From assembly GCA_958299035.1 (NCBI GenBank), contig CATQJL010000001.1, positions 32,289,554 through 32,353,553 of the forward strand: a stretch of 64,000 nt of DNA, given 5' to 3'. Under the pieces are notes generated by a model that saw only the letters and a list, made by a program, of their open reading frames with translations, searched no databases and was not told the origin of the DNA. Both the position numbers and the translations under genes were made by a program. This DNA comes from Cylicocyclus nassatus (taxonomy: Eukaryota; Nematoda; Chromadorea; Rhabditida; Strongylidae). Positions 1 through 64,000 of this stretch are shown in pieces (positions within the stretch are counted from its first letter, which is position 1; every line of letters begins with the position of its first letter).

Positions 1-171
1 GTAGCGCTTCCGCATTTGCGCGGAAGAATGATGCTCGAAAATCGCTGGCGCAGTATAACTAATTGATGTTTAAAGGTCGTGCAGTTGTTGAGGTGACGAA
101 AAGTCCATATCCATGCTCATCATAGAGAAAGTAAAGCTCAAAGACTGTCTGTACACATGATGTAGTAGCCG

Positions 172-253
172 GCAGCGATGTCCGAGTGGTTAAGGAGATT
201 GACTCGAAATCAATTGGGCTCTGGTCGCGCAGGTTCGGACCCTGCTCGCTGCG
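172..253 (+). pseudogene. tRNA-Ser(CGA), degenerate copy
   Basis: Spacer S1 upstream is cut by the window edge. The variable arm reads CTGGTCGC, which breaks its stem, and the T loop reads TTCGGAC, which changes the conserved A at canonical position 58. This is the most altered full-length copy and is probably poorly functional. Confidence 0.7.
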
Positions 254-257
254 AATC

Positions 258-261
258 TTTT
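258..261 (+). terminator. Pol III terminator, S2 type (T4)
   Basis: The T4 run lies 5 bases after the tRNA at 172 and is repeated at the start of every S2 spacer. It is one T shorter than the S1 run, so read-through could differ between the two spacers. Confidence 0.8.
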
Positions 262-272
262 GTCTAGAGACA
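261..272 (+). repeat. Short inverted repeat in S2
   Basis: TGTCT-AG-AGACA overlaps the last T of the terminator. The GTCTAA allele keeps the arms; the GTTTAG allele leaves only a G-U pair in RNA. Function is unknown. Confidence 0.5.
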
Positions 273-367
273 TCGTGCCCTTCTTAGCGCACATTCTTAG
301 GTAACTTTGTCGAAACACTTTATAGGCAGAAATACAAAGCTCTGGAACCACTAACGATCACCAGCTG

Positions 368-449
368 GCAGCGATGTCCGAGTGGTTAAGGAGATTGACT
401 AGAAATCAATTGGGCTCTGCCCGCGCAGGTTCGAATCCTGCTCGCTGCG
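368..449 (+). tRNA. tRNA-Ser(AGA)
   Basis: Behind S2. Type copy of the AGA gene: acceptor GCAGCGA/TCGCTGC, anticodon at 401-403, G discriminator, no intron. Adenosine 34 should be edited to inosine, reading UCU, UCC and UCA. Confidence 0.96.
428..438 (+). promoter_or_regulatory. Internal B box, type copy
   Basis: GGTTCGAATCC in the T arm of the tRNA at 368 matches the eukaryotic Pol III B box. It lies at index 61-71 of each gene. C55 alleles read GGTCCGAATCC. Confidence 0.9.
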
Positions 450-453
450 AATC

Positions 454-458
454 TTTTT
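454..458 (+). terminator. Pol III terminator, S1 type (T5)
   Basis: The T5 run lies 5 bases after the discriminator G of the tRNA at 368. The same run opens nearly every S1 spacer. Confidence 0.85.
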
Positions 459-469
459 GTGCGTAGCGG

Positions 470-487
470 TTCCGCATTTGCGCGGAA
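470..487 (+). repeat. S1 hairpin
   Basis: TTCCGC and GCGGAA flank a 6-base loop. The C allele of S1 lengthens the stem to CTTCCGC/GCGGAAG. It lies 11 bases after the T5 run. Confidence 0.6.
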
Positions 488-611
488 GAATGATGCTCGA
501 AAATCGCTGGCGCAGTATAACTAATTGATGTTTAAAGGTCGTGCAGTTGTTGAGGTGACGAAAAGTCCATATCCATGCTCATCATAGGAAAAGTAAAGCT
601 CAAGGTGTCTG

Positions 612-628
612 TACTACATGATGTAGTA
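612..628 (+). promoter_or_regulatory. S1b palindrome upstream of tRNA
   Basis: The 17-base TACTACAT-G-ATGTAGTA is a perfect dyad at -21 to -5 from the tRNA at 633. Every S1b copy has it; ordinary S1 (TACACATG or TATACATG) has a broken or shortened version. It may mark a TFIIIB-site difference or be a recombination by-product. Confidence 0.45.
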
Positions 629-632
629 GCCG

Positions 633-714
633 GCAGCGATGTCCGAGTGGTTAAGGAGATTGACTCGAAATCAATTGGGCTCTGCCCGCGCAGGTTCGAA
701 TCCTGCTCGCTGCG
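633..714 (+). tRNA. tRNA-Ser(CGA)
   Basis: Behind S1b. Type copy of the CGA gene: anticodon 666-668, reads UCG. It differs from the AGA copy at 368 only at the first anticodon base. Confidence 0.96.
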
Positions 715-898
715 AATCTTTTTGTGCGTAGCGTTTCCGCATTTGCGCGGAAGAATGATGCTCGAAAATCGCTGGCGCAGTATAACTAATTGATGTTTAA
801 AGGTCGTGCAGTTGTTGAGGTGACGAAAAGTCCATATACATGCTCATCATAGGAAAAGTAAAGCTCAAAGACTGTCTGTATACATGATGTAGTAGCCG

Positions 899-980
899 GC
901 AGCGATGTCCGAGTGGTTAAGGAGATTGACTCGAAATCAATTGGGCTCTGCCCGCGCAGGTTCGAATCCTGCTCGCTGCG
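899..980 (+). tRNA. tRNA-Ser(CGA)
   Basis: Behind S1. Reference body. Confidence 0.95.
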
Positions 981-1164
981 AATCTTTTTGTGCGTAGCGG
1001 TTCCGCATTTGCGCGGAAGAATGATGCTCGAAAATCGCTGGCGCAGTATAACTAATTGATGTTTAAAGGTCGTGCAGTTGTTGAGGTGACGAAAAGTCCA
1101 TATCCATGCTCATCATAGGAAAAGTAAAGCTCAAAGGCGGTCTGTACACATGATGTAGTAGCCG

Positions 1165-1246
1165 GCAGCGATGTCCGAGTGGTTAAGGAGATTGACTCGA
1201 AATCAATTGGGCTCCGCCCGCGCAGGTTCGAATCCTGCTCGCTGCG
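1165..1246 (+). tRNA. tRNA-Ser(CGA)
   Basis: Behind S1. Loop TCC. Confidence 0.95.
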
Positions 1247-1430
1247 AATCTTTTTGTGCGTAGCGGTTCCGCATTTGCGCGGAAGAATGATGCTCGAAAA
1301 TCGCTGGCGCAGTATAACTAATTGATGTTTAAAGGTCGTGCAGTTGTTGAGGTGACGAAAAGTCCATATCCATGCTCATCATAGGAAAAGTAAAGCTCAA
1401 AGACTGTCTGTATACATGATGTAGTAGCCG

Positions 1431-1512
1431 GCAGCGATGTCCGAGTGGTTAAGGAGATTGACTCGAAATCAAATGGGCTCTGCCCGCGCAGGTTCGAATC
1501 CTGCTCGCTGCG
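1431..1512 (+). tRNA. tRNA-Ser(CGA)
   Basis: Behind S1. A43 opens the outer anticodon-stem pair. Confidence 0.9.
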
Positions 1513-1696
1513 AATCTTTTTGTGCGTAGCGCTTCCGCATTTGCGCGGAAGAATGATGCTCGAAAATCGCTGGCGCAGTATAACTAATTGATGTTTAAAG
1601 GTCGTGCAGTTGTTGAGGTGACGAAAAGTCCATATCCATGCTCATCATAGAGAAAGTAAAGCTCAAAGACTGTCTGTACACATGATGTAGTAGCCG

Positions 1697-1779
1697 GCAG
1701 CGATGTCCGAGTGGTTAAGGAGATTTGACTCGAAATCAATTGGGCTCTGCCCGCGCAGGTTCGAATCCTGCTCGCTGCG
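1697..1779 (+). tRNA. tRNA-Ser(CGA), 83 bp
   Basis: Behind S1. One extra T in the 5' anticodon stem (ATTTGA), probably a bulge. Confidence 0.8.
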
Positions 1780-1962
1780 AATCTTTTTGTGCGTAGCGGT
1801 TCCGCATTTGCGCGGAAGAATGATGCTCGAAAATCGCTGGCGCAGTATAACTAATTGATGTTTAAAGGTCGTGCAGTTGTTGAGGTGACGAAAAGTCCAT
1901 ATCCATGCTCATCATAGGAAAAGTAAAGCTCAAGGTGTCTGTACTACATGATGTAGTAGCCG

Positions 1963-2044
1963 GCAGCGATGTCCGAGTGGTTAAGGAGATTGACTCGAAA
2001 TCAATTGGGCTCTGCCCGCGCAGGTTCGAATCCTGCTCGCTGCG
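1963..2044 (+). tRNA. tRNA-Ser(CGA)
   Basis: Behind S1b. Reference body. Confidence 0.95.
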
Positions 2045-2228
2045 AATCTTTTTGTGCGTAGCGGTTCCGCATTTGCGCGGAAGAATGATGCTCGAAAATC
2101 GCTGGCGCAGTATAACTAATTGATGTTTAAAGGTCGTGCAGTTGTTGAGGTGACGAAAAGTCCATATCCATGCTCATCATAGGAAAAGTAAAGCTCAAAG
2201 ACTGTCTGTATACATGATGTAGTAGCCG

Positions 2229-2310
2229 GCAGCGATGTCCGAGTGGTTAAGGAGATTGACTCGAAATCAAATGGGCTCTGCCCGCGCAGGTTCGAATCCT
2301 GCTCGCTGCG
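2229..2310 (+). tRNA. tRNA-Ser(CGA)
   Basis: Behind S1. A43. Confidence 0.9.
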
Positions 2311-2494
2311 AATCTTTTTGTGCGTAGCGCTTCCGCATTTGCGCGGAAGAATGATGCTCGAAAATCGCTGGCGCAGTATAACTAATTGATGTTTAAAGGT
2401 CGTGCAGTTGTTGAGGTGACGAAAAGTCCATATCCATGCTCATCATAGAGAAAGTAAAGCTCAAAGACTGTCTGTACACATGATGTAGTAGCCG

Positions 2495-2577
2495 GCAGCG
2501 ATGTCCGAGTGGTTAAGGAGATTTGACTCGAAATCAATTGGGCTCTGCCCGCGCAGGTTCGAATCCTGCTCGCTGCG
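2495..2577 (+). tRNA. tRNA-Ser(CGA), 83 bp
   Basis: Behind S1. Extra T in the anticodon stem, as at 1697. Confidence 0.8.
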
Positions 2578-2760
2578 AATCTTTTTGTGCGTAGCGGTTC
2601 CGCATTTGCGCGGAAGAATGATGCTCGAAAATCGCTGGCGCAGTATAACTAATTGATGTTTAAAGGTCGTGCAGTTGTTGAGGTGACGAAAAGTCCATAT
2701 CCATGCTCATCATAGGAAAAGTAAAGCTCAAGGTGTCTGTACTACATGATGTAGTAGCCG

Positions 2761-2842
2761 GCAGCGATGTCCGAGTGGTTAAGGAGATTGACTCGAAATC
2801 AATTGGGCTCTGCCCGCGCAGGTTCGAATCCTGCTCGCTGCG
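2761..2842 (+). tRNA. tRNA-Ser(CGA)
   Basis: Behind S1b. Reference body. Confidence 0.95.
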
Positions 2843-3026
2843 AATCTTTTTGTGCGTAGCGGTTCCGCATTTGCGCGGAAGAATGATGCTCGAAAATCGC
2901 TGGCGCAGTATAACTAATTGATGTTTAAAGGTCGTGCAGTTGTTGAGGTGACGAAAAGTCCATATCCATGCTCATCATAGGAAAAGTAAAGCTCAAAGAC
3001 TGTCTGTATACATGATGTAGTAGCCG

Positions 3027-3108
3027 GCAGCGATGTCCGAGTGGTTAAGGAGATTGACTCGAAATCAAATGGGCTCTGCCCGCGCAGGTTCGAATCCTGC
3101 TCGCTGCG
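3027..3108 (+). tRNA. tRNA-Ser(CGA)
   Basis: Behind S1. A43. Confidence 0.9.
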
Positions 3109-3222
3109 AATCTTTTGTCTAGAGACATCGTGCCCTTCTTAGCGCACATTCTTAGGTAACTTTGTCGAAACACTTTATAGGCAGAAATACAAAGCTCTGG
3201 AACCACTAACGATCACCAGCTG

Positions 3223-3304
3223 GCAGCGATGTCCGAGTGGTTAAGGAGATTGACTAGAAATCAATTGGGCTCTGCCCGCGCAGGTTCGAATCCTGCTCGC
3301 TGCG
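3223..3304 (+). tRNA. tRNA-Ser(AGA)
   Basis: Behind S2. Reference body. Confidence 0.95.
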
Positions 3305-3487
3305 AATCTTTTTGTGCGTAGCGGTTCCGCATTTGCGCGGAAGAATGATGCTCGAAAATCGCTGGCGCAGTATAACTAATTGATGTTTAAAGGTCGTGCA
3401 GTTGTTGAGGTGACGAAAAGTCCATATCCATGCTCATCATAGGAAAAGTAAAGCTCAAGGTGTCTGTACTACATGATGTAGTAGCCG

Positions 3488-3569
3488 GCAGCGATGTCCG
3501 AGTGGTTAAGGAGATTGACTCGAAATCAATTGGGCTCTGCCCGCGCAGGTTCGAATCCTGCTCGCTGCG
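3488..3569 (+). tRNA. tRNA-Ser(CGA)
   Basis: Behind S1b. Reference body. Confidence 0.95.
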
Positions 3570-3753
3570 AATCTTTTTGTGCGTAGCGTTTCCGCATTTG
3601 CGCGGAAGAATGATGCTCGAAAATCGCTGGCGCAGTATAACTAATTGATGTTTAAAGGTCGTGCAGTTGTTGAGGTGACGAAAAGTCCATATCCATGCTC
3701 ATCATAGGAAAAGTAAAGCTCAAAGACTGTCTGTATACATGATGTAGTAGCCG

Positions 3754-3835
3754 GCAGCGATGTCCGAGTGGTTAAGGAGATTGACTCGAAATCAATTGGG
3801 CTCTGCCCGCGCAGGTTCGAATCCTGCTCGCTGCG
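3754..3835 (+). tRNA. tRNA-Ser(CGA)
   Basis: Behind S1. Reference body. Confidence 0.95.
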
Positions 3836-3949
3836 AATCTTTTGTCTAGAGACATCGTGCCCTTCTTAGCGCACATTCTTAGGTAACTTTGTCGAAACAC
3901 TTTATAGGCAGAAATTCAAAGCTCTGGAACCACTAACGATCACCAGCTG

Positions 3950-4031
3950 GCAGCGATGTCCGAGTGGTTAAAGAGATTGACTAGAAATCAATTGGGCTCT
4001 GCCCGCGCAGGTCCGAATCCTGCTCGCTGCG
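3950..4031 (+). tRNA. tRNA-Ser(AGA), A23 C55
   Basis: Behind S2. A23 breaks a D-stem pair and C55 alters the B box. Confidence 0.75.
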
Positions 4032-4215
4032 AATCTTTTTGTGCGTAGCGGTTCCGCATTTGCGCGGAAGAATGATGCTCGAAAATCGCTGGCGCAGTAT
4101 AACTAATTGATGTTTAAAGGTCGTGCAGTTGTTGAGGTGACGAAAAGTCCATATCCATGCTCATCATAGGAAAAGTAAAGCTCAAAGACTGTTTGTACAC
4201 ATGATGTAGTAGCCG

Positions 4216-4297
4216 GCAGCGATGTCCGAGTGGTTAAGGAGATTGACTCGAAATCAATTGGGCTCTGCCCGCGCAGGTTCGAATCCTGCTCGCTGCG
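4216..4297 (+). tRNA. tRNA-Ser(CGA)
   Basis: Behind S1. Reference body. Confidence 0.95.
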
Positions 4298-4480
4298 AAT
4301 CTTTTTGTGCGTAGCGGTTCCGCATTTGCGCGGAAGAATGATGCTCGAAAATCGCTGGCGCAGTATAACTAATTGATGTTTAAAGGTCGTGCAGTTGTTG
4401 AGGTGACGAAAAGTCCATATCCATGCTCATCATAGGAAAAGTAAAGCTCAAGGTGTCTGTACTACATGATGTAGTAGCCG

Positions 4481-4562
4481 GCAGCGATGTCCGAGTGGTT
4501 AAGGAGATTGACTCGAAATCAATTGGGCTCTGCCCGCGCAGGTTCGAATCCTGCTCGCTGCG
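4481..4562 (+). tRNA. tRNA-Ser(CGA)
   Basis: Behind S1b. Reference body. Confidence 0.95.
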
Positions 4563-4746
4563 AATCTTTTTGTGCGTAGCGTTTCCGCATTTGCGCGGAA
4601 GAATGATGCTCGAAAATCGCTGGCGCAGTATAACTAATTGATGTTTAAAGGTCGTGCAGTTGTTGAGGTGACGAAAAGTCCATATCCATGCTCATCATAG
4701 GAAAAGTAAAGCTCAAAGACTGTCTGTATACATGATGTAGTAGCCG

Positions 4747-4828
4747 GCAGCGATGTCCGAGTGGTTAAGGAGATTGACTCGAAATCAATTGGGCTCTGCC
4801 CGCGCAGGTTCGAATCCTGCTCGCTGCG
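4747..4828 (+). tRNA. tRNA-Ser(CGA)
   Basis: Behind S1. Reference body. Confidence 0.95.
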
Positions 4829-4942
4829 AATCTTTTGTCTAGAGACATCGTGCCCTTCTTAGCGCACATTCTTAGGTAACTTTGTCGAAACACTTTATAG
4901 GCAGAAATTCAAAGCTCTGGAACCACTAACGATCACCAGCTG

Positions 4943-5024
4943 GCAGCGATGTCCGAGTGGTTAAAGAGATTGACTAGAAATCAATTGGGCTCTGCCCGCG
5001 CAGGTCCGAATCCTGCTCGCTGCG
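4943..5024 (+). tRNA. tRNA-Ser(AGA), A23 C55
   Basis: Behind S2. Same alleles as 3950. Confidence 0.75.
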
Positions 5025-5208
5025 AATCTTTTTGTGCGTAGCGGTTCCGCATTTGCGCGGAAGAATGATGCTCGAAAATCGCTGGCGCAGTATAACTAAT
5101 TGATGTTTAAAGGTCGTGCAGTTGTTGAGGTGACGAAAAGTCCATATCCATGCTCATCATAGGAAAAGTAAAGCTCAAAGACTGTTTGTACACATGATGT
5201 AGTAGCCG

Positions 5209-5290
5209 GCAGCGATGTCCGAGTGGTTAAGGAGATTGACTCGAAATCAATTGGGCTCTGCCCGCGCAGGTTCGAATCCTGCTCGCTGCG
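5209..5290 (+). tRNA. tRNA-Ser(CGA)
   Basis: Behind S1. Reference body. Confidence 0.95.
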
Positions 5291-5473
5291 AATCTTTTTG
5301 TGCGTAGCGGTTCCGCATTTGCGCGGAAGAATGATGCTCGAAAATCGCTGGCGCAGTATAACTAATTGATGTTTAAAGGTCGTGCAGTTGTTGAGGTGAC
5401 GAAAAGTCCATATCCATGCTCATCATAGGAAAAGTAAAGCTCAAGGTGTCTGTACTACATGATGTAGTAGCCG

Positions 5474-5555
5474 GCAGCGATGTCCGAGTGGTTAAGGAGA
5501 TTGACTCGAAATCAATTGGGCTCTGCCCGCGCAGGTTCGAATCCTGCTCGCTGCG
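5474..5555 (+). tRNA. tRNA-Ser(CGA)
   Basis: Behind S1b. Reference body. Confidence 0.95.
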
Positions 5556-5739
5556 AATCTTTTTGTGCGTAGCGTTTCCGCATTTGCGCGGAAGAATGAT
5601 GCTCGAAAATCGCTGGCGCAGTATAACTAATTGATGTTTAAAGGTCGTGCAGTTGTTGAGGTGACGAAAAGTCCATATCCATGCTCATCATAGGAAAAGT
5701 AAAGCTCAAAGACTGTCTGTATACATGATGTAGTAGCCG

Positions 5740-5821
5740 GCAGCGATGTCCGAGTGGTTAAGGAGATTGACTCGAAATCAATTGGGCTCTGCCCGCGCAG
5801 GTTCGAATCCTGCTCGCTGCG
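5740..5821 (+). tRNA. tRNA-Ser(CGA)
   Basis: Behind S1. Reference body. Confidence 0.95.
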
Positions 5822-5935
5822 AATCTTTTGTCTAGAGACATCGTGCCCTTCTTAGCGCACATTCTTAGGTAACTTTGTCGAAACACTTTATAGGCAGAAA
5901 TTCAAAGCTCTGGAACCACTAACGATCACCAGCTG

Positions 5936-6017
5936 GCAGCGATGTCCGAGTGGTTAAAGAGATTGACTAGAAATCAATTGGGCTCTGCCCGCGCAGGTCC
6001 GAATCCTGCTCGCTGCG
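5936..6017 (+). tRNA. tRNA-Ser(AGA), A23 C55
   Basis: Behind S2. Same alleles as 3950. Confidence 0.75.
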
Positions 6018-6201
6018 AATCTTTTTGTGCGTAGCGGTTCCGCATTTGCGCGGAAGAATGATGCTCGAAAATCGCTGGCGCAGTATAACTAATTGATGTT
6101 TAAAGGTCGTGCAGTTGTTGAGGTGACGAAAAGTCCATATCCATGCTCATCATAGGAAAAGTAAAGCTCAAAGACTGTTTGTACACATGATGTAGTAGCC
6201 G

Positions 6202-6283
6202 GCAGCGATGTCCGAGTGGTTAAGGAGATTGACTCGAAATCAATTGGGCTCTGCCCGCGCAGGTTCGAATCCTGCTCGCTGCG
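6202..6283 (+). tRNA. tRNA-Ser(CGA)
   Basis: Behind S1. Reference body. Confidence 0.95.
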
Positions 6284-6466
6284 AATCTTTTTGTGCGTAG
6301 CGGTTCCGCATTTGCGCGGAAGAATGATGCTCGAAAATCGCTGGCGCAGTATAACTAATTGATGTTTAAAGGTCGTGCAGTTGTTGAGGTGACGAAAAGT
6401 CCATATCCATGCTCATCATAGGAAAAGTAAAGCTCAAGGTGTCTGTACTACATGATGTAGTAGCCG

Positions 6467-6548
6467 GCAGCGATGTCCGAGTGGTTAAGGAGATTGACTC
6501 GAAATCAATTGGGCTCTGCCCGCGCAGGTTCGAATCCTGCTCGCTGCG
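6467..6548 (+). tRNA. tRNA-Ser(CGA)
   Basis: Behind S1b. Reference body. Confidence 0.95.
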
Positions 6549-6732
6549 AATCTTTTTGTGCGTAGCGTTTCCGCATTTGCGCGGAAGAATGATGCTCGAA
6601 AATCGCTGGCGCAGTATAACTAATTGATGTTTAAAGGTCGTGCAGTTGTTGAGGTGACGAAAAGTCCATATTTATGCTCATCATAGGAAAAGTAAAGCTC
6701 AAAGACTGTCTGTATACATGATGTAGTAGCCG

Positions 6733-6814
6733 GCAGCGATGTCCGAGTGGTTAAGGAGATTGACTCGAAATCAATTGGGCTCTGCCCGCGCAGGTTCGAA
6801 TCCTGCTCGCTGCG
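6733..6814 (+). tRNA. tRNA-Ser(CGA)
   Basis: Behind S1 (with a private CATATTTATG change). Reference body. Confidence 0.95.
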
Positions 6815-6928
6815 AATCTTTTGTCTAGAGACATCGTGCCCTTCTTAGCGCACATTCTTAGGTAACTTTGTCGAAACACTTTATAGGCAGAAATTCAAAG
6901 CTCTGGAACCACTAACGATCACCAGCTG

Positions 6929-7010
6929 GCAGCGATGTCCGAGTGGTTAAAGAGATTGACTAGAAATCAATTGGGCTCTGCCCGCGCAGGTCCGAATCCT
7001 GCTCGCTGCG
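6929..7010 (+). tRNA. tRNA-Ser(AGA), A23 C55
   Basis: Behind S2. Same alleles as 3950. Confidence 0.75.
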
Positions 7011-7194
7011 AATCTTTTTGTGCGTAGCGGTTCCGCATTTGCGCGGAAGAATGATGCTCGAAAATCGCTGGCGCAGTATAACTAATTGATGTTTAAAGGT
7101 CGTGCAGTTGTTGAGGTGACGAAAAGTCCATATCCATGCTCATCATAGGAAAAGTAAAGCTCAAAGACTGTTTGTACACATGATGTAGTAGCCG

Positions 7195-7276
7195 GCAGCG
7201 ATGTCCGAGTGGTTAAGGAGATTGACTCGAAATCAATTGGGCTCTGCCCGCGCAGGTTCGAATCCTGCTCGCTGCG
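7195..7276 (+). tRNA. tRNA-Ser(CGA)
   Basis: Behind S1. Reference body. Confidence 0.95.
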
Positions 7277-7460
7277 AATCTTTTTGTGCGTAGCGGTTCC
7301 GCATTTGCGCGGAAGAATGATGCTCGAAAATCGCTGGCGCAGTATAACTAATTGATGTTTAAAGGTCGTGCAGTTGTTGAGGTGACGAAAAGTCCATATC
7401 CATGCTCATCATAGGAAAAGTAAAGCTCAAAGACTGTCTGTATACATGATGTAGTAGCCG

Positions 7461-7542
7461 GCAGCGATGTCCGAGTGGTTAAGGAGATTGACTCGAAATC
7501 AATTGGGCTCTGCCCGCGCAGGTTCGAATCCTGCTCGCTGCG
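7461..7542 (+). tRNA. tRNA-Ser(CGA)
   Basis: Behind S1. Reference body. Confidence 0.95.
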
Positions 7543-7656
7543 AATCTTTTGTCTAGAGACATCGTGCCCTTCTTAGCGCACATTCTTAGGTAACTTTGTC
7601 GAAACACTTTATAGGCAGAAATTCAAAGCTCTGGAACCACTAACGATCACCAGCTG

Positions 7657-7738
7657 GCAGCGATGTCCGAGTGGTTAAAGAGATTGACTAGAAATCAATT
7701 GGGCTCTGCCCGCGCAGGTCCGAATCCTGCTCGCTGCG
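7657..7738 (+). tRNA. tRNA-Ser(AGA), A23 C55
   Basis: Behind S2. Same alleles as 3950. Confidence 0.75.
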
Positions 7739-7922
7739 AATCTTTTTGTGCGTAGCGGTTCCGCATTTGCGCGGAAGAATGATGCTCGAAAATCGCTGGC
7801 GCAGTATAACTAATTGATGTTTAAAGGTCGTGCAGTTGTTGAGGTGACGAAAAGTCCATATCCATGCTCATCATAGGAAAAGTAAAGCTCAAAGACTGTT
7901 TGTACACATGATGTAGTAGCCG

Positions 7923-8004
7923 GCAGCGATGTCCGAGTGGTTAAGGAGATTGACTCGAAATCAATTGGGCTCTGCCCGCGCAGGTTCGAATCCTGCTCGC
8001 TGCG
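7923..8004 (+). tRNA. tRNA-Ser(CGA)
   Basis: Behind S1. Reference body. Confidence 0.95.
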
Positions 8005-8188
8005 AATCTTTTTGTGCGTAGCGGTTCCGCATTTGCGCGGAAGAATGATGCTCGAAAATCGCTGGCGCAGTATAACTAATTGATGTTTAAAGGTCGTGCA
8101 GTTGTTGAGGTGACGAAAAGTCCATATCCATGCTCATCATAGGAAAAGTAAAGCTCAAAGACGGTCTGTACACATGATGTAGTAGCCG

Positions 8189-8270
8189 GCAGCGATGTCC
8201 GAGTGGTTAAGGAGATTGACTCGAAATCAATTGGGCTCTGCCCGCGCAGGTTCGAATCCTGCTCGCTGCG
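8189..8270 (+). tRNA. tRNA-Ser(CGA)
   Basis: Behind S1. Reference body. Confidence 0.95.
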
Positions 8271-8454
8271 AATCTTTTTGTGCGTAGCGGTTCCGCATTT
8301 GCGCGGAAGAATGATGCTCGAAAATCGCTGGCGCAGTATAACTAATTGATGTTTAAAGGTCGTGCAGTTGTTGAGGTGACGAAAAGTCCATATCCATGCT
8401 CATCATAGGAAAAGTAAAGCTCAAAGACTGTCTGTATACATGATGTAGTAGCCG

Positions 8455-8537
8455 GCAGCGATGTCCGAGTGGTTAAAGAGATTTGACTCGAAATCAATTG
8501 GGCTCTGCCCGCGCAGGTTCGAATCCTGCTCGCTGCG
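8455..8537 (+). tRNA. tRNA-Ser(CGA), 83 bp
   Basis: Behind S1. A23 plus an extra T in the anticodon stem. Confidence 0.75.
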
Positions 8538-55133: not shown

Positions 55134-55247
55134 AATCTTTTGTCTAGAGACATCGTGCCCTTCTTAGCGCACATTCTTAGGTAACTTTGTCGAAACACTT
55201 TATAGGCAGAAATTCAAAGCTCTGGAACCACTAACGATCACCAGGTG

Positions 55248-55513: not shown

Positions 55514-55595
55514 GCAGCGATGTCCGAGTGGTTAAGGAGATTGACTCGAAATCAATTGGACTCTGCCCGCGCAGGTTCGAATCCTGCTCGCTGCG
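55514..55595 (+). tRNA. tRNA-Ser(CGA), variable-arm A
   Basis: Behind S1. GGAC as at 54592. Confidence 0.88.
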
Positions 55596-55707
55596 AATCT
55601 TTTGTCTAGAGACATCGTGCCCTTCTTAGCGCACATTCTTAAGGCTTTGTCGAAACACTTTGTAGGCAGAAATTCAAAGCTCTGGAACCACTAACGATCA
55701 CCAGCTG

Positions 55708-55789
55708 GCAGCGATGTCCGAGTGGTTAAGGAGATTGACTAGAAATCAATTGGGCTTTGCCCGCGCAGGTTCGAATCCTGCTCGCTGCG
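55708..55789 (+). tRNA. tRNA-Ser(AGA)
   Basis: Behind S2s. Loop TTT. Confidence 0.95.
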
Positions 55790-55973
55790 AATCTTTTTGT
55801 GCGTAGCGGTTCCGCATTTGCGCGGAGGAATGATGCTCGAAAATCGCTGGCGCAGTATAACTAATTGATGTTTAAAGGTTGTGCAGTTGTTGAGGTGACC
55901 AAGAGTCCATATCCATGCTCATCATAGGAAAAGTAAAGCTCAAAGACTGTCTGTACACATGATGTAGTAGCCG

Positions 55974-56055
55974 GCAGCGATGTCCGAGTGGTTAAGGAGA
56001 TTGACTCGAAATCAATAGGGCTCTGCCCGCGCAGGTTCGAATCCTGCTCGCTGCG
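55974..56055 (+). tRNA. tRNA-Ser(CGA), A44
   Basis: Behind S1. A44 at the variable-arm start. Confidence 0.93.
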
Positions 56056-56169
56056 AATCTTTTGTCTAGAGACATCGTGCCCTTCTTAGCGCACATTCTT
56101 AGGTAACTTTGTCGAAACACTTTGTAGGCAGAAATTCAAAGCTCTGGAACCACTAACGATCACCAGCTG

Positions 56170-56251
56170 GCAGCGATGTCCGAGTGGTTAAGGAGATTGA
56201 CTAGAAATCAATTGGGCTCTGCCCGCGCAGGTTCGAATCCTGCTCGCTGCG
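56170..56251 (+). tRNA. tRNA-Ser(AGA)
   Basis: Behind S2. Reference body. Confidence 0.95.
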
Positions 56252-56435
56252 AATCTTTTTGTGCGTAGCGGTTCCGCATTTGCGCGGAGGAATGATGCTC
56301 GAAAATCGCTGGCGCAGTATGACTAATTGATGTTTAAAGGTTGTGCAGTTGTTGAGGTGACCAAGAGTCCATATCCATGCTCATCACAGGAAAAGTAAAG
56401 CTCAAAGACTGTCTGTACACATGATGTAGTAGCCG

Positions 56436-56517
56436 GCAGCGATGTCCGAGTGGTTAAGGAGATTGACTCGAAATCAATTGGGCTCTGCCCGCGCAGGTTC
56501 GAATCCTGCTCGCTGCG
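56436..56517 (+). tRNA. tRNA-Ser(CGA)
   Basis: Behind S1. Reference body. Confidence 0.95.
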
Positions 56518-56631
56518 AATCTTTTGTCTAGAGACATCGTGCCCTTCTTAGCGCACATTCTTAGGTAACTTTGTCGAAACACTTTATAGGCAGAAATTCA
56601 AAGCTCTGGAACCAATAACGATCACCAGCTG

Positions 56632-56713
56632 GCAGCGATGTCCGAGTGGTTAAGGAGATTGACTAGAAATCAATTGGGCTCTGCCCGCGCAGATTCGAAT
56701 CCTGCTCGCTGCG
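56632..56713 (+). tRNA. tRNA-Ser(AGA), A62
   Basis: Behind S2. A62 changes the second B-box base (GATTCG) and breaks the T-stem pair next to the loop. Confidence 0.8.
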
Positions 56714-56897
56714 AATCTTTTTGTGCGTAGCGGTTCCGCATTTGCGCGGAAGAATGATGCTCGAAAATCGCTGGCGCAGTATAACTAATTGATGTTTAAA
56801 GGTCGTGCAGTTGTTGAGGTGACGAAAAGTCCATATCCATGCTCATCATAGGAAAAGTAAAGCTCAAAGACTGTCTGTACACATGACGTAGTAGCCG

Positions 56898-56979
56898 GCA
56901 GCGATGTCCGAGTGGTTAAGGAGATTGACTCGAAATCAAATGGGCTCCGCCCGCGCAGGTTCGAATCCTGCTCGCTGCG
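56898..56979 (+). tRNA. tRNA-Ser(CGA), A43
   Basis: Behind S1 (GACGTAG allele). A43, loop TCC. Confidence 0.9.
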
Positions 56980-57093
56980 AATCTTTTGTCTAGAGACATC
57001 GTGCCCTTCTTAGCGCACATTCTTAGGTAACTTTGTCGAAACACTTTGTAGGCAGAAATTCAAAGCTCTGGAACCACTAACGATCACCAGGTG

Positions 57094-57175
57094 GCAGCGA
57101 TGTCCGAGTGGTTAAGGAGATTGACTAGAAATCAATTGGGCTCTGCCCGCGCAGGTTCGAATCCTGCTCGCTGCG
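57094..57175 (+). tRNA. tRNA-Ser(AGA)
   Basis: Behind S2 (CCAGGTG end). Reference body. Confidence 0.95.
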
Positions 57176-57359
57176 AATCTTTTTGTGCGTAGCGGTTCCG
57201 CATTTGCGCGGAGGAATGATGCTCGAAAATCGCTGGCGCAGTATAACTAATTGATGTTTAAAGGTTGTGCAGTTGTTGAGGTGACCAAGAGTCCATATCC
57301 ATGCTCATCATAGGAAAAGTAAAGCTCAAAGACTGTCTGTACACATGATGTAGTAGCCG

Positions 57360-57441
57360 GCAGCGATGTCCGAGTGGTTAAGGAGATTGACTCGAAATCA
57401 ATTGGACTCTGCCCGCGCAGGTTCGAATCCTGCTCGCTGCG
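57360..57441 (+). tRNA. tRNA-Ser(CGA), variable-arm A
   Basis: Behind S1. GGAC as at 54592. Confidence 0.88.
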
Positions 57442-57553
57442 AATCTTTTGTCTAGAGACATCGTGCCCTTCTTAGCGCACATTCTTAAGGCTTTGTCGAA
57501 ACACTTTGTAGGCAGAAATTCAAAGCTCTGGAACCACTAACGATCACCAGCTG

Positions 57554-57635
57554 GCAGCGATGTCCGAGTGGTTAAGGAGATTGACTAGAAATCAATTGGG
57601 CTTTGCCCGCGCAGGTTCGAATCCTGCTCGCTGCG
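57554..57635 (+). tRNA. tRNA-Ser(AGA)
   Basis: Behind S2s. Loop TTT. Confidence 0.95.
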
Positions 57636-57819
57636 AATCTTTTTGTGCGTAGCGGTTCCGCATTTGCGCGGAGGAATGATGCTCGAAAATCGCTGGCGCA
57701 GTATAACTAATTGATGTTTAAAGGTTGTGCAGTTGTTGAGGTGACCAAGAGTCCATATCCATGCTCATCATAGGAAAAGTAAAGCTCAAAGACTGTCTGT
57801 ACACATGATGTAGTAGCCG

Positions 57820-57901
57820 GCAGCGATGTCCGAGTGGTTAAGGAGATTGACTCGAAATCAATTGGGCTCTGCCCGCGCAGGTTCGAATCCTGCTCGCTGC
57901 G
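57820..57901 (+). tRNA. tRNA-Ser(CGA)
   Basis: Behind S1. Reference body. Confidence 0.95.
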
Positions 57902-58013
57902 AATCTTTTGTCTAGAGACATCGTGCCCTTCTTAGCGCACATTCTTAAGGCTTTGTCGAAACACTTTGTAGGCAGAAATTCAAAGCTCTGGAACCACTAA
58001 CGATCACCAGCTG

Positions 58014-58095
58014 GCAGCGATGTCCGAGTGGTTAAGGAGATTGACTAGAAATCAATTGGGCTTTGCCCGCGCAGGTTCGAATCCTGCTCGCTGCG
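58014..58095 (+). tRNA. tRNA-Ser(AGA)
   Basis: Behind S2s. Loop TTT. Confidence 0.95.
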
Positions 58096-58279
58096 AATCT
58101 TTTTGTGCGTAGCGGTTCCGCATTTGCGCGGAGGAATGATGCTCGAAAATCGCTGGCGCAGTATAACTAATTGATGTTTAAAGGTTGTGCAGTTGTTGAG
58201 GTGACCAAGAGTCCATATCCATGCTCATCATAGGAAAAGTAAAGCTCAAAGACTGTCTGTACACATGATGTAGTAGCCG

Positions 58280-58361
58280 GCAGCGATGTCCGAGTGGTTA
58301 AGGAGATTGACTCGAAATCAATAGGGCTCTGCCCGCGCAGGTTCGAATCCTGCTCGCTGCG
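58280..58361 (+). tRNA. tRNA-Ser(CGA), A44
   Basis: Behind S1. A44. Confidence 0.93.
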
Positions 58362-58475
58362 AATCTTTTGTCTAGAGACATCGTGCCCTTCTTAGCGCAC
58401 ATTCTTAGGTAACTTTGTCGAAACACTTTGTAGGCAGAAATTCAAAGCTCTGGAACCACTAACGATCACCAGCTG

Positions 58476-58557
58476 GCAGCGATGTCCGAGTGGTTAAGGA
58501 GATTGACTAGAAATCAATTGGGCTCTGCCCGCGCAGGTTCGAATCCTGCTCGCTGCG
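58476..58557 (+). tRNA. tRNA-Ser(AGA)
   Basis: Behind S2. Reference body. Confidence 0.95.
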
Positions 58558-58741
58558 AATCTTTTTGTGCGTAGCGGTTCCGCATTTGCGCGGAGGAATG
58601 ATGCTCGAAAATCGCTGGCGCAGTATGACTAATTGATGTTTAAAGGTTGTGCAGTTGTTGAGGTGACCAAGAGTCCATATCCATGCTCATCACAGGAAAA
58701 GTAAAGCTCAAAGACTGTCTGTACACATGATGTAGTAGCCG

Positions 58742-58823
58742 GCAGCGATGTCCGAGTGGTTAAGGAGATTGACTCGAAATCAATTGGGCTCTGCCCGCGC
58801 AGGTTCGAATCCTGCTCGCTGCG
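58742..58823 (+). tRNA. tRNA-Ser(CGA)
   Basis: Behind S1. Reference body. Confidence 0.95.
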
Positions 58824-58937
58824 AATCTTTTGTCTAGAGACATCGTGCCCTTCTTAGCGCACATTCTTAGGTAACTTTGTCGAAACACTTTATAGGCAGA
58901 AATTCAAAGCTCTGGAACCAATAACGATCACCAGCTG

Positions 58938-59019
58938 GCAGCGATGTCCGAGTGGTTAAGGAGATTGACTAGAAATCAATTGGGCTCTGCCCGCGCAGAT
59001 TCGAATCCTGCTCGCTGCG
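58938..59019 (+). tRNA. tRNA-Ser(AGA), A62
   Basis: Behind S2. A62 as at 56632. Confidence 0.8.
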
Positions 59020-59203
59020 AATCTTTTTGTGCGTAGCGGTTCCGCATTTGCGCGGAAGAATGATGCTCGAAAATCGCTGGCGCAGTATAACTAATTGATG
59101 TTTAAAGGTCGTGCAGTTGTTGAGGTGACGAAAAGTCCATATCCATGCTCATCATAGGAAAAGTAAAGCTCAAAGACTGTCTGTACACATGACGTAGTAG
59201 CCG

Positions 59204-59285
59204 GCAGCGATGTCCGAGTGGTTAAGGAGATTGACTCGAAATCAAATGGGCTCCGCCCGCGCAGGTTCGAATCCTGCTCGCTGCG
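59204..59285 (+). tRNA. tRNA-Ser(CGA), A43
   Basis: Behind S1 (GACGTAG allele). A43, loop TCC. Confidence 0.9.
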
Positions 59286-59399
59286 AATCTTTTGTCTAGA
59301 GACATCGTGCCCTTCTTAGCGCACATTCTTAGGTAACTTTGTCGAAACACTTTGTAGGCAGAAATTCAAAGCTCTGGAACCACTAACGATCACCAGGTG

Positions 59400-59481
59400 G
59401 CAGCGATGTCCGAGTGGTTAAGGAGATTGACTAGAAATCAATTGGGCTCTGCCCGCGCAGGTTCGAATCCTGCTCGCTGCG
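59400..59481 (+). tRNA. tRNA-Ser(AGA)
   Basis: Behind S2 (CCAGGTG end). Reference body. Confidence 0.95.
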
Positions 59482-59665
59482 AATCTTTTTGTGCGTAGCG
59501 GTTCCGCATTTGCGCGGAGGAATGATGCTCGAAAATCGCTGGCGCAGTATAACTAATTGATGTTTAAAGGTTGTGCAGTTGTTGAGGTGACCAAGAGTCC
59601 ATATCCATGCTCATCATAGGAAAAGTAAAGCTCAAAGACTGTCTGTACACATGATGTAGTAGCCG

Positions 59666-59747
59666 GCAGCGATGTCCGAGTGGTTAAGGAGATTGACTCG
59701 AAATCAATTGGACTCTGCCCGCGCAGGTTCGAATCCTGCTCGCTGCG
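59666..59747 (+). tRNA. tRNA-Ser(CGA), variable-arm A
   Basis: Behind S1. GGAC as at 54592. Confidence 0.88.
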
Positions 59748-59859
59748 AATCTTTTGTCTAGAGACATCGTGCCCTTCTTAGCGCACATTCTTAAGGCTTT
59801 GTCGAAACACTTTGTAGGCAGAAATTCAAAGCTCTGGAACCACTAACGATCACCAGCTG

Positions 59860-59941
59860 GCAGCGATGTCCGAGTGGTTAAGGAGATTGACTAGAAATCA
59901 ATTGGGCTTTGCCCGCGCAGGTTCGAATCCTGCTCGCTGCG
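59860..59941 (+). tRNA. tRNA-Ser(AGA)
   Basis: Behind S2s. Loop TTT. Confidence 0.95.
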
Positions 59942-60125
59942 AATCTTTTTGTGCGTAGCGGTTCCGCATTTGCGCGGAGGAATGATGCTCGAAAATCGCT
60001 GGCGCAGTATAACTAATTGATGTTTAAAGGTTGTGCAGTTGTTGAGGTGACCAAGAGTCCATATCCATGCTCATCATAGGAAAAGTAAAGCTCAAAGACT
60101 GTCTGTACACATGATGTAGTAGCCG

Positions 60126-60207
60126 GCAGCGATGTCCGAGTGGTTAAGGAGATTGACTCGAAATCAATTGGGCTCTGCCCGCGCAGGTTCGAATCCTGCT
60201 CGCTGCG
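60126..60207 (+). tRNA. tRNA-Ser(CGA)
   Basis: Behind S1. Reference body. Confidence 0.95.
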
Positions 60208-60321
60208 AATCTTTTGTCTAGAGACATCGTGCCCTTCTTAGCGCACATTCTTAGGTAACTTTGTCGAAACACTTTGTAGGCAGAAATTCAAAGCTCTGGA
60301 ACCACTAACGATCACCAGCTG

Positions 60322-60403
60322 GCAGCGATGTCCGAGTGGTTAAGGAGATTGACTAGAAATCAATTGGGCTCTGCCCGCGCAGGTTCGAATCCTGCTCGCT
60401 GCG
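60322..60403 (+). tRNA. tRNA-Ser(AGA)
   Basis: Behind S2. Reference body. Confidence 0.95.
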
Positions 60404-60587
60404 AATCTTTTTGTGCGTAGCGGTTCCGCATTTGCGCGGAAGAATGATGCTCGAAAATCGCTGGCGCAGTATAACTAATTGATGTTTAAAGGTCGTGCAG
60501 TTGTTGAGGTGACGAAAAGTCCATATCCATGCTCATCATAGGAAAAGTAAAGCTCAAAGACTGTCTGTACACATGATGTAGTAGCCG

Positions 60588-60669
60588 GCAGCGATGTCCG
60601 AGTGGTTAAGGAGATTGACTCGAAATCAATTGGGCTCTGCCCGCGCAGGTTCGAATCCTGCTCGCTGCG
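60588..60669 (+). tRNA. tRNA-Ser(CGA)
   Basis: Behind S1. Reference body. Confidence 0.95.
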
Positions 60670-60783
60670 AATCTTTTGTCTAGAGACATCGTGCCCTTCT
60701 TAGCGCACATTCTTAGGTAACTTTGTCGAAACACTTTGTAGGCAGAAATTCAAAGCTCTGGAACCACTAACGATCACCAGCTG

Positions 60784-60865
60784 GCAGCGATGTCCGAGTG
60801 GTTAAGGAGATTGACTAGAAATCAATTGGGCTCTGCCCGCGCAGGTTCGAATCCTGCTCGCTGCG
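60784..60865 (+). tRNA. tRNA-Ser(AGA)
   Basis: Behind S2. Reference body. Confidence 0.95.
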
Positions 60866-61049
60866 AATCTTTTTGTGCGTAGCGGTTCCGCATTTGCGCG
60901 GAAGAATGATGCTCGAAAATCGCTGGCGCAGTATAACTAATTGATGTTTAAAGGTCGTGCAGTTGTTGAGGTGACGAAAAGTCCATATCCATGCTCATCA
61001 TAGGAAAAGTAAAGCTCAAAGACTGTCTGTACACATGACGTAGTAGCCG

Positions 61050-61131
61050 GCAGCGATGTCCGAGTGGTTAAGGAGATTGACTCGAAATCAAATGGGCTCC
61101 GCCCGCGCAGGTTCGAATCCTGCTCGCTGCG
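61050..61131 (+). tRNA. tRNA-Ser(CGA), A43
   Basis: Behind S1 (GACGTAG allele). A43, loop TCC. Confidence 0.9.
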
Positions 61132-61245
61132 AATCTTTTGTCTAGAGACATCGTGCCCTTCTTAGCGCACATTCTTAGGTAACTTTGTCGAAACACTTTA
61201 TAGGCAGAAATTCAAAGCTCTGGAACCACTAACGATCACCAGCTG

Positions 61246-61327
61246 GCAGCGATGTCCGAGTGGTTAAGGAGATTGACTAGAAATCAATTGGGCTCTGCCC
61301 GCGCAGGTTCGAATCCTGCTCGCTGCG
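61246..61327 (+). tRNA. tRNA-Ser(AGA)
   Basis: Behind S2. Reference body. Confidence 0.95.
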
Positions 61328-61512
61328 AATCTTTTTGTGCGTAGCGGTTCCGCATTTGCGCAGAAGAATGATGCTCGAAAATCGCTGGCGCAGTATAACT
61401 AATTGATGTTTAAAGGTCGTGCAGTTGTTGAGGTGACGAAAAGTCCATATCCATGCTCATCATAGGAAAAGTAAAGCTCAAGGACTGTCTGTACTACATG
61501 ATGTAGTAGCCG

Positions 61513-61594
61513 GCAGCGATGTCCGAGTGGTTAAGGAGATTGACTTGAAATCAATTGGGCTCTGCCCGCGCAGGTTCGAATCCTGCTCGCTGCG
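61513..61594 (+). tRNA. tRNA-Ser(TGA)
   Basis: Behind a 185-bp S1 hybrid (CAAGGACTG plus the S1b palindrome). Anticodon TGA at 61546-61548 reads UCA (and UCG by wobble), a third Ser isoacceptor made by one base change from CGA. Confidence 0.93.
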
Positions 61595-61708
61595 AATCTT
61601 TTGTCTAGAGACATCGTGCCCTTCTTAGCGCACATTCTTAGGTAACTTTGTCGAAACACTTTATAGGCAGAAATTCAAAGCTCTGGAACCACTAACGATC
61701 ACCAGCTG

Positions 61709-61790
61709 GCAGCGATGTCCGAGTGGTTAAGGAGATTGACTAGAAATCAATTGGGCTCTGCCCGCGCAGGTTCGAATCCTGCTCGCTGCG
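61709..61790 (+). tRNA. tRNA-Ser(AGA)
   Basis: Behind S2. Reference body. Confidence 0.95.
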
Positions 61791-61974
61791 AATCTTTTTG
61801 TGCGTAGCGGTTCCGCATTTGCGCGGAAGAATGATGCTCGAAAATCGCTGGCACAGTATAACTAATTGATGTTTAAAGGTTGTGCAGTTGTTGAGGTGAC
61901 AAAAAGTCCATATCCATGCTCATCATTGGAAAAGTAAAGCTTAAAGACTGCCTGTACACATGATGTAGTAGCCG

Positions 61975-61984
61975 GCTCGCTGCG
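61975..61984 (+). pseudogene. tRNA-Ser stub after 72-bp deletion
   Basis: Same junction and same marked S1 allele as the stub at 50048, so the deletion was copied with its unit. Confidence 0.9.
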
Positions 61985-62098
61985 AATCTTTTGTCTAGAG
62001 ACATCGTGCCCTTCTTAGCGCACATTCTTAGGTAACTTTGTCGAAACACTTTATAGGCAGAAATTCAAAGCTCTGGAACCACTAACGGTCACCAGCTG

Positions 62099-62180
62099 GC
62101 AGCGATGTCCGAGTGGTTAAGGAGATTGACTAGAAATCAATTGGGCTCTGCCCGCGCAGGTTCGAATCCTGCTCGCTGCG
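62099..62180 (+). tRNA. tRNA-Ser(AGA)
   Basis: Behind S2 (AACGGTCACC allele). Reference body. Confidence 0.95.
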
Positions 62181-62365
62181 AATCTTTTTGTGCGTAGCGG
62201 TTCCGCATTTGCGCAGAAGAATGATGCTCGAAAATCGCTGGCACAGTATAACTAATTGATGTTCAAAGGTCGTGCAGTTATTGAGGTGACGAAAAGTCCA
62301 TATCCATGCTCATCATAGGAAAAGTAAAGCTCAAGGACTGTCTGTACTACATGATGTAGTAGCCG

Positions 62366-62447
62366 GCAGCGATGTCCAAGTGGTTAAGGAGATTGACTTG
62401 AAATCAATTGGGCTCTGCCCGCGCAGGTTCGAATCCTGCTCGCTGCG
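62366..62447 (+). tRNA. tRNA-Ser(TGA), A13
   Basis: Behind the 185-bp S1 hybrid. Anticodon TGA at 62399-62401; A13 in the D loop. Confidence 0.9.
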
Positions 62448-62561
62448 AATCTTTTGTCTAGAGACATCGTGCCCTTCTTAGCGCACATTCTTAGGTAACT
62501 TTGTCGAAACACTTTGTAGGCAGAAATTCAAAGCTCTGGAACCACTAACGATCACCAGGTG

Positions 62562-62643
62562 GCAGCGATGTCCGAGTGGTTAAGGAGATTGACTAGAAAT
62601 CAATTGGGCTCTGCCCGCGCAGGTTCGAATCCTGCTCGCTGCG
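62562..62643 (+). tRNA. tRNA-Ser(AGA)
   Basis: Behind S2 (CCAGGTG end). Reference body. Confidence 0.95.
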
Positions 62644-62827
62644 AATGTTTTTGTGCGTAGCGGTTCCGCATTTGCGCGGAGGAATGATGCTCGAAAATCG
62701 CTGGCGCAGTATAACTAATTGATGTTTAAAGGTTGTGCAGTTTTTGAGGTGACCAAGAGTCCATATCCATGCTCATCATAGGAAAAGTAAAGCTCAAAGA
62801 CTGTCTGTACACATGATGTAGTAGCCG

Positions 62828-62909
62828 GCAGCGATGTCCGAGTGGTTAAGGAGATTGACTCGAAATCAATTGGGCTCTGCCCGCGCAGGTTCGAATCCTG
62901 CTCGCTGCG
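62828..62909 (+). tRNA. tRNA-Ser(CGA)
   Basis: Behind S1. Reference body. Confidence 0.95.
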
Positions 62910-63023
62910 AATCTTTTGTCTAGAGACATCGTGCCCTTCTTAGCGCACATTCTTAGGTAACTTTGTCGAAACACTTTGTAGGCAGAAATTCAAAGCTCTG
63001 GAACCACTAACGATCACCAGCTG

Positions 63024-63105
63024 GCAGCGATGTCCGAGTGGTTAAGGAGATTGACTAGAAATCAATTGGGCTCTGCCCGCGCAGGTTCGAATCCTGCTCG
63101 CTGCG
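63024..63105 (+). tRNA. tRNA-Ser(AGA)
   Basis: Behind S2. Reference body. Confidence 0.95.
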
Positions 63106-63219
63106 AATCTTTTGTCTAGAGACATCGTGCCCTTCTTAGCGCACATTCTTAGGTAACTTTGTCGAAACACTTTATAGGCAGAAATTCAAAGCTCTGGAAC
63201 CATTAACGATCACCAGCTG

Positions 63220-63301
63220 GCAGCGATGTCCGAGTGGTTAAGGAGATTGACTAGAAATCAATTGGGCTCTGCCCGCGCAGGTTCGAATCCTGCTCGCTGC
63301 G
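63220..63301 (+). tRNA. tRNA-Ser(AGA)
   Basis: Behind S2. Reference body. Confidence 0.95.
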
Positions 63302-63485
63302 AATCTTTTTGTGCGTAGCGGTTCCGCATTTGCGCGGAAGAATGATGCTCGAAAATCGCTGGCGCAGTATAACTAATTGATGTTTAAAGGTCGTGCAGTT
63401 GTTGAGGTGACGAAAAGTCCATATCCATGCTCATCATAGGAAAAGTAAAGCTCAAAGACTGTCTGTACACATGACGTAGTAGCCG

Positions 63486-63567
63486 GCAGCGATGTCCGAG
63501 TGGTTAAGGAGATTGACTCGAAATCAAATGGGCTCCGCCCGCGCAGGTTCGAATCCTGCTCGCTGCG
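63486..63567 (+). tRNA. tRNA-Ser(CGA), A43
   Basis: Behind S1 (GACGTAG allele). A43, loop TCC. Confidence 0.9.
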
Positions 63568-63681
63568 AATCTTTTGTCTAGAGACATCGTGCCCTTCTTA
63601 GCGCACATTCTTAGGTAACTTTGTCGAAACACTTTATAGGCAGAAATTCAAAGCTCTGGAACCACTAACGATCACCAGCTG

Positions 63682-63763
63682 GCAGCGATGTCCGAGTGGT
63701 TAAGGAGATTGACTAGAAATCAATTGGGCTCTGCCCGCGCAGGTTCGAATCCTGCTCGCTGCG
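63682..63763 (+). tRNA. tRNA-Ser(AGA)
   Basis: Behind S2. Reference body. Confidence 0.95.
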
Positions 63764-63947
63764 AATCTTTTTGTGCGTAGCGGTTCCGCATTTGCGCAGA
63801 AGAATGATGCTCGAAAATCGCTGGCACAGTATAACTAATTGATGTTCAAAGGTCGTGCAGTTATTGAGGTGACAAAAAGTCCATATCCATGCTCATCATT
63901 GGAAAAGTAAAGCTTAAAGACTGCCTGTACACATGATGTAGTAGCCG

Positions 63948-63957
63948 GCTCGCTGCG
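63948..63957 (+). pseudogene. tRNA-Ser stub after 72-bp deletion
   Basis: Third copy of the deleted unit. S2 follows and is cut by the window end. Confidence 0.9.
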
Positions 63958-64000
63958 AATCTTTTGTCTAGAGACATCGTGCCCTTCTTAGCGCACATTC

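Follow-up and report, generated by a model that had tools for sequence, protein, structure and literature searches.

A 64,000-bp stretch of Cylicocyclus nassatus DNA (assembly GCA_958299035.1, contig CATQJL010000001.1, positions 32,289,554 to 32,353,553; hereafter the window) is a tandem array of serine transfer RNA (tRNA) genes, in which two isoacceptors, CGA and AGA, are interleaved with two unrelated spacers, a and b. The presence of a 64-kb serine tRNA array was confirmed as real. We are fairly confident that it is a genuine nuclear array of RNA polymerase III (Pol III)-type genes, which would descend from two ancestral loci and have grown by unequal exchange, with a probable role in tRNA supply and a length probably set by recombination and drift.

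The window was checked with ARAGORN, Tandem Repeats Finder (TRF), blastn searches using the tRNA body, and blastn tiling with the repeat modules. Blastn located the 82-bp tRNA-Ser body 272 times, and 272/272 copies lay on the plus strand; the original prediction had put the number at about 272 in a single orientation, and the figure proved exact and the orientation held. ARAGORN reported 267 tRNAs, all on the plus strand, of which 266 were serine and one leucine (anticodon CAA on a serine body). The five blastn copies beyond these 267 were bodies with a shortened 5' end. Body length was 82 nt in 264 copies, 83 nt in three, and 77 nt in five. At the gathering score Rfam returned 264 matches, and every one among the 150 matches listed was RF00005 tRNA. 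Three modules, the tRNA body (34.8% of the window), spacer a (22.7%), and spacer b (42.5%), accounted for 63,970/64,000 bases in the tiling, and the 30 bases outside them were three b-a junctions without a tRNA. The density was one tRNA gene per ~235 bp, with start-to-start distances of 194 to 390 bp for all 272 copies and 194 to 457 bp for the 267 full-length ones. Neighboring genes thus stood less than 1000 nt apart, the spacing by which PMC2888827 defines a homogeneous cluster; its requirement of one amino acid held for 271/272 copies by anticodon, the CAA copy strictly failing it. Base 1 fell in spacer b and the last base in spacer a, so the array continues past both ends, as had been predicted.

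Protein-coding content was rejected, as the longest closed stop-to-stop frame had 108 amino acids and the frames repeated with the unit. There were 28 closed frames of at least 100 amino acids, every one on the minus strand. Minus-strand Rfam matches to plastid untranslated region families were dropped as weak (at most 24.6 bits vs. 65.7; 20.5 vs. 68). The CpG observed/expected ratio was 1.14 across the window, which makes a heavily CpG-methylated genome unlikely.

Two isoacceptors in a mosaic of two spacers

Spacer a, usually 114 bp, was present in 128 copies and spacer b, usually 183-184 bp, in 148. They had no homology past base 8 other than chance words. Together with the body they gave the unit lengths found by TRF, chiefly 196, 265/266, and 462 bp (Table 1). 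The anticodons of the 272 copies were CGA (140), AGA (129), TGA (2), and CAA (1). With CGA and AGA both abundant, the array holds one amino acid yet not one gene: the claim of 64 kb made only of serine tRNA genes stands as to the amino acid and the tiling, and falls short in that two isoacceptors are interleaved.

The anticodon tracked the upstream spacer: CGA was found in 129/145 copies after b, and AGA in 116/127 copies after a. Two contexts dominated, b-CGA-a (99 copies) and a-AGA-b (98 copies), comprising 197/272 copies, and together they make up the 462-bp dimer detected by TRF. The other contexts were b-CGA-b (30), a-AGA-a (18), b-AGA-b (13), a-CGA-a (6), a-CGA-b (5), b-TGA-a (2), and b-CAA-b (1). 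Departures from the dominant contexts required a single switch in 67 copies, 48 of which switch 3' of the wobble base and 19 5' of it; five copies had a double-switch context and three were the TGA and CAA copies. Since the spacers are unrelated beyond 8 bases, the body and those 8 bases are the sole route for homologous recombination between units. Breakpoints within the body predict that association should shift from the upstream to the downstream spacer along the gene, and among 264 copies the wobble base was associated at 0.80 with the upstream and 0.60 with the downstream spacer, position 49 at 0.10 and 0.26, and position 51 at 0.32 and 0.40, respectively.

Most likely there were two ancestral tRNA-Ser loci, a CGA gene preceded by spacer b and an AGA gene preceded by spacer a, which would have had in common only the 82-bp body and the following 8 bases, terminator included. 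These loci would have become neighbors, in most cases as the 462-bp dimer, and the units would have multiplied by unequal exchange. Breakpoints within the tRNA body would shuffle the spacers and yield a-a and b-b runs, and exchanges spanning several units would build the local higher-order repeats and maintain homogeneity across the array, a form of concerted evolution.

Several points weigh against this scenario. The remaining variable sites lean little or not at all toward either spacer, and position 64 near the 3' end (0.30 upstream, 0.28 downstream) does not match a clean association gradient. The copies are related and thus non-independent, and the context counts are numbers of copies, not of events. 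The observed classes would be expected equally from two monomer arrays that mixed and from a dimer that broke up, and apparent crossovers could stem from gene conversion of the body. The minimum of single-sequence folding was cloverleaf-like for the AGA example and not for the CGA and CAA examples, with z-scores of -2.1 to -2.3 for the three tRNA copies and -0.3 for spacer a. Unmodified tRNAs often give such non-cloverleaf folding energies.

Higher-order structure and the assembly

Among the 272 units there were 116 distinct types (114/271 when units were cut from body start to body start). The median distance to the nearest identical unit was 7 units. When units were shuffled 500 times within spacer type, this distance averaged 22 and never fell below 15, so that 0/500 shuffles reached the observed median. 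The array also fell into four zones of differing composition (Table 1). The higher-order structure that had been predicted is therefore supported, both by the TRF units and by identical units clustering closer than in the shuffles.

The window is pure repeat and open at both ends, and it could reflect an assembler that looped a short array many times. Looping should leave longer exact copies than were observed: the longest exact repeat was 2,422 bp and the second longest 2,387 bp. These lengths, the 116 unit types, the local higher-order repeats, and the differing zones favor a real array, and we regard an assembly artifact as highly improbable. Long reads of ordinary length could order the units.

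Gene integrity and possible roles

The consensus body folds into a full cloverleaf with a four-pair variable arm, and all cloverleaf pairs tested were standard. Consensus genes scored 61.7 bits (CGA) and 60.4 bits (AGA) against an Rfam threshold of 29, and in their sequence they combine the cloverleaf, A and B boxes, and T-run terminator of functional tRNA genes. No new stem mismatch was present in 225/264 of the 82-nt copies, and 194/264 also had consensus A and B boxes under conventional box boundaries. Exactly half of the copies (136/272) were exact consensus genes, 76 AGA and 60 CGA. The acceptor stem was poor in variants (2 in 14 sites among the 264 82-nt copies, the five damaged 77-nt copies being left out). 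A T4 run started 128/128 spacers a and a T5 run 146/148 spacers b, so that a run of T4 or longer opened 274/276 spacers; the exceptions were one spacer clipped by the window start and one at 27004. The latter follows the AGA copy at 26922-27003 and begins with CTTT, not T4/T5, and this terminator looks broken. A Meloidogyne incognita small-RNA precursor matched the body at 60/62 positions of the stretch compared, with a different acceptor stem, a mere hint of nematode origin. Most copies look transcribable, so that the array is a probable contributor to the pool of Ser-UCN tRNAs; at least part of it is probably transcribed.

The tRNA body is not more conserved than the spacers. Diversity was 0.0167 in the body (wobble base excluded), 0.0158 in spacer a, and 0.0213 in spacer b, and at 120 copies the body carried 0.34 variants per site and the spacers 0.19 and 0.24. 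Homogenization is visible in these data, and selection on single copies is not. That transcribed tRNA genes mutate faster is a published idea which could explain the higher variant count of the body; the copies are related and we make no claim. The second T of the B box was replaced by C in 25/264 of the 82-nt copies, three of them with a further G, and this variant has been multiplied.

Among supply, boundary, and satellite roles, a body no more conserved than its spacers favors satellite-like drift. The array could be satellite DNA whose monomers happen to be tRNA genes, its copies mostly silent and propagated by drift alone, with the working tRNA-Ser genes located elsewhere. Besides the diversity values and the higher variant count of the body, the multiplied B-box variant fits such an origin, as does the similar abundance of CGA (140) and AGA (129); codon demand does not usually give such similar copy numbers. 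Arguing against silent copies are the nearly universal terminator runs, the 136/272 exact consensus AGA or CGA genes, and the variant-poor acceptor stem. We hold a silent satellite to be a serious possibility, though one with somewhat less than an even chance; it involves the same exchange mechanism as the array we favor and denies the supply role, and our confidence in the two overlaps. For the favored array with a supply role, we consider that recombination and drift probably determined its length to a greater degree than demand did.

Alternatively, selection for tRNA-Ser supply could maintain a long array, as might be needed to make an abundant serine-rich product. The AGA anticodon is read as inosine, and together with CGA it decodes all four UCN codons. 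The pair would thus cover the whole UCN box, and half of the copies retain the exact consensus. The body shows no extra conservation, and we find selection for supply unlikely. In a further scenario the monomer of a satellite would be a live tRNA gene, expanded regardless of codon demand and homogenized by exchange through the body. This Pol III satellite is quite unlikely in our estimate. If true, it would steadily yield altered tRNAs, here those with TGA and CAA anticodons on a serine body.

Finally, the array might act as a chromatin boundary or, with its many TFIIIC sites, as a structural or telomere-like domain. The human tRNA repeat at 1q23.3 binds CTCF (PMC4041453), and Entamoeba tRNA arrays have been proposed as telomeres (PMC2652664). 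A telomere-like nature is opposed by the motif counts, as TTAGGC, TTAGGG, TTTAGGG, CCCTAA, and GCCTAA each had 0 occurrences in the window (plus strand as written), and we judge a boundary or structural role very improbable. Derivation from short interspersed elements was rejected: the T4/T5 terminator directly follows the tRNA and the spacer ends are not A-rich, while a tail resembling long interspersed elements was not searched for.

Published arrays and aberrant copies

It had been stated that the tandem tRNA arrays known so far mix amino acids and that a single-amino-acid array of this size with higher-order structure would be exceptional. The first statement is wrong and the second falls with it, given the arrays of Phytophthora infestans, Hydractinia, Arabidopsis, and maize. 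In P. infestans all 271 tRNA-Cys genes lie in one array with a 513-nt unit (PMC9584435), or ~139 kb if unbroken by our own arithmetic (271 x 513 nt); read depth served that study as a check on tRNA gene numbers. In the same genome some arrays are dimers whose two genes differ in anticodon but not in amino acid (Gln CTG/TTG), and sequence variants tend to be grouped in its arrays (PMC9584435). As in that organism, the window holds hundreds of near-identical tRNA genes for the same amino acid arranged head to tail, with 272 plus-strand copies and spacer diversity of 0.016 and 0.021. It differs in its shorter units (196 and 266 bp), its two unrelated and irregularly mixed spacers, and its CGA/AGA serine genes; in P. 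infestans the AGA serine gene occurs in an 850-nt dimer with tRNA-Val (PMC9584435).

Tandem arrays of non-coding RNA genes, tRNAs included, reach tens or even hundreds of copies in Hydractinia (PMC11067881). Entamoeba likewise has long tandem tRNA arrays, some with single-gene units ([H-GTG]) and some mixed, whose homogenization is ascribed to concerted evolution (PMC2652664). Their units hold up to 5 genes, and those of E. histolytica and E. dispar have intergenic short tandem repeats (PMC2652664). An Entamoeba-type array was rejected for the window because such repeats were lacking at a TRF score of 50, all periods being at least 196 bp. Among plants, Arabidopsis has 27 tandem tRNA-Pro genes and 27 Tyr-Tyr-Ser units and maize 28 tRNA-Ile genes (cited in PMC12652284). 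Plant tandem clusters comprise 2 to 110 genes, and 77% of tandem neighbors have the anticodon in common (PMC12652284); they include same-amino-acid arrays as here, but with fewer copies. The human 1q23.3 variable number tandem repeat also carries tRNA genes and is unstable in copy number, but its unit is 7.3 kb with <6% tRNA sequence (PMC4041453), compared with ~35% in the window.

A search of the open-licence literature met no prior report of this particular array, which says little on novelty. Exact patterns of the body or the spacers had no match in sets of genome and viral contigs, from which this genome and its nearest relatives may be missing. The array type itself is already known, and the distinctive points are the gene density and the two-spacer mosaic. 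The window adds a very dense example to a type that long-read assemblies have revealed in several lineages. With one shared body flanked by two unrelated spacers, the array records recombination switch points and could serve to quantify exchange within tRNA genes. A further question is how cells tolerate additional tRNA genes by the hundred, along with the anticodon mutants they include.

Table 1. Coordinates of the array, its zones, and representative or aberrant units within the window.
Feature	Positions	Strand	Basis or remark
Tandem tRNA-Ser gene array	1..64000	+	Open at both ends; module tiling and 272 plus-strand copies
Zone rich in 265/266-bp b units (30 b, 8 a)	1..9600	+	Local 4-unit repeat of 993 bp
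Zone of mixed units (38 b, 25 a)	9600..24600	+	462-bp dimers interspersed
Zone rich in 196-bp a-unit runs (42 a, 31 b)	24600..41000	+	Local repeats of ~1.6 and 2.4-2.5 kb
Zone of nearly regular 462-bp dimers (50 a, 48 b)	41000..64000	+	TRF, unit analysis
Example spacer a, 114 bp	254..367	+	Opens with AATCTTTT, Pol III-type T4 terminator; gives 196-bp unit
Example tRNA-Ser(AGA), 82 bp, after spacer a	368..449	+	ARAGORN; Rfam tRNA 60.4 bits
Example spacer b, 183-184 bp	450..632	+	Opens with AATCTTTTT, T5; gives 265/266-bp unit
Example tRNA-Ser(CGA), 82 bp, after spacer b	633..714	+	ARAGORN; Rfam tRNA 61.7 bits
Serine-type body with anticodon CAA (Leu), otherwise consensus	8986..9067	+	ARAGORN; Rfam 62.4 bits
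77-nt copy with damaged 5' end	11362..11438	+	One of 5, others starting at 13007, 14456, 15639, and 18081; missed by ARAGORN
b-a junctions without tRNA	50048..50057, 61975-61984, 63948-63957	+	Same sequence in all three
tRNA-Ser(TGA) copies	61513..61594 and 62366-62447	+	Near right end; both after a b spacer ending ACTACATGATGTAGTAGCCG

The five copies with identical 5' damage recur in one 7-kb zone, which indicates that a broken gene was multiplied along with its neighbors. At the three tRNA-less junctions spacer b adjoins the 3' end of a body, followed by spacer a. Short GC matches may have mediated a deletion that was copied afterwards. Seryl-tRNA synthetase recognizes the long variable arm, not the anticodon. 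If charged with serine, the CAA copy would place serine at UUG leucine codons.

The three 83-nt copies, at 1697, 2495, and 8455, have an extra T in the anticodon stem. In spacer b a GC-rich inverted repeat (TTCCGC...GCGCGGAA) follows shortly after the terminator, at 470-487 and at the equivalent positions of other b copies. The first full copy, at 172-253, differs from the consensus at four positions in the variable arm and T loop (53, 54, 67, and 69), and each of these four differences is absent from all other full-length copies in the set of 264.

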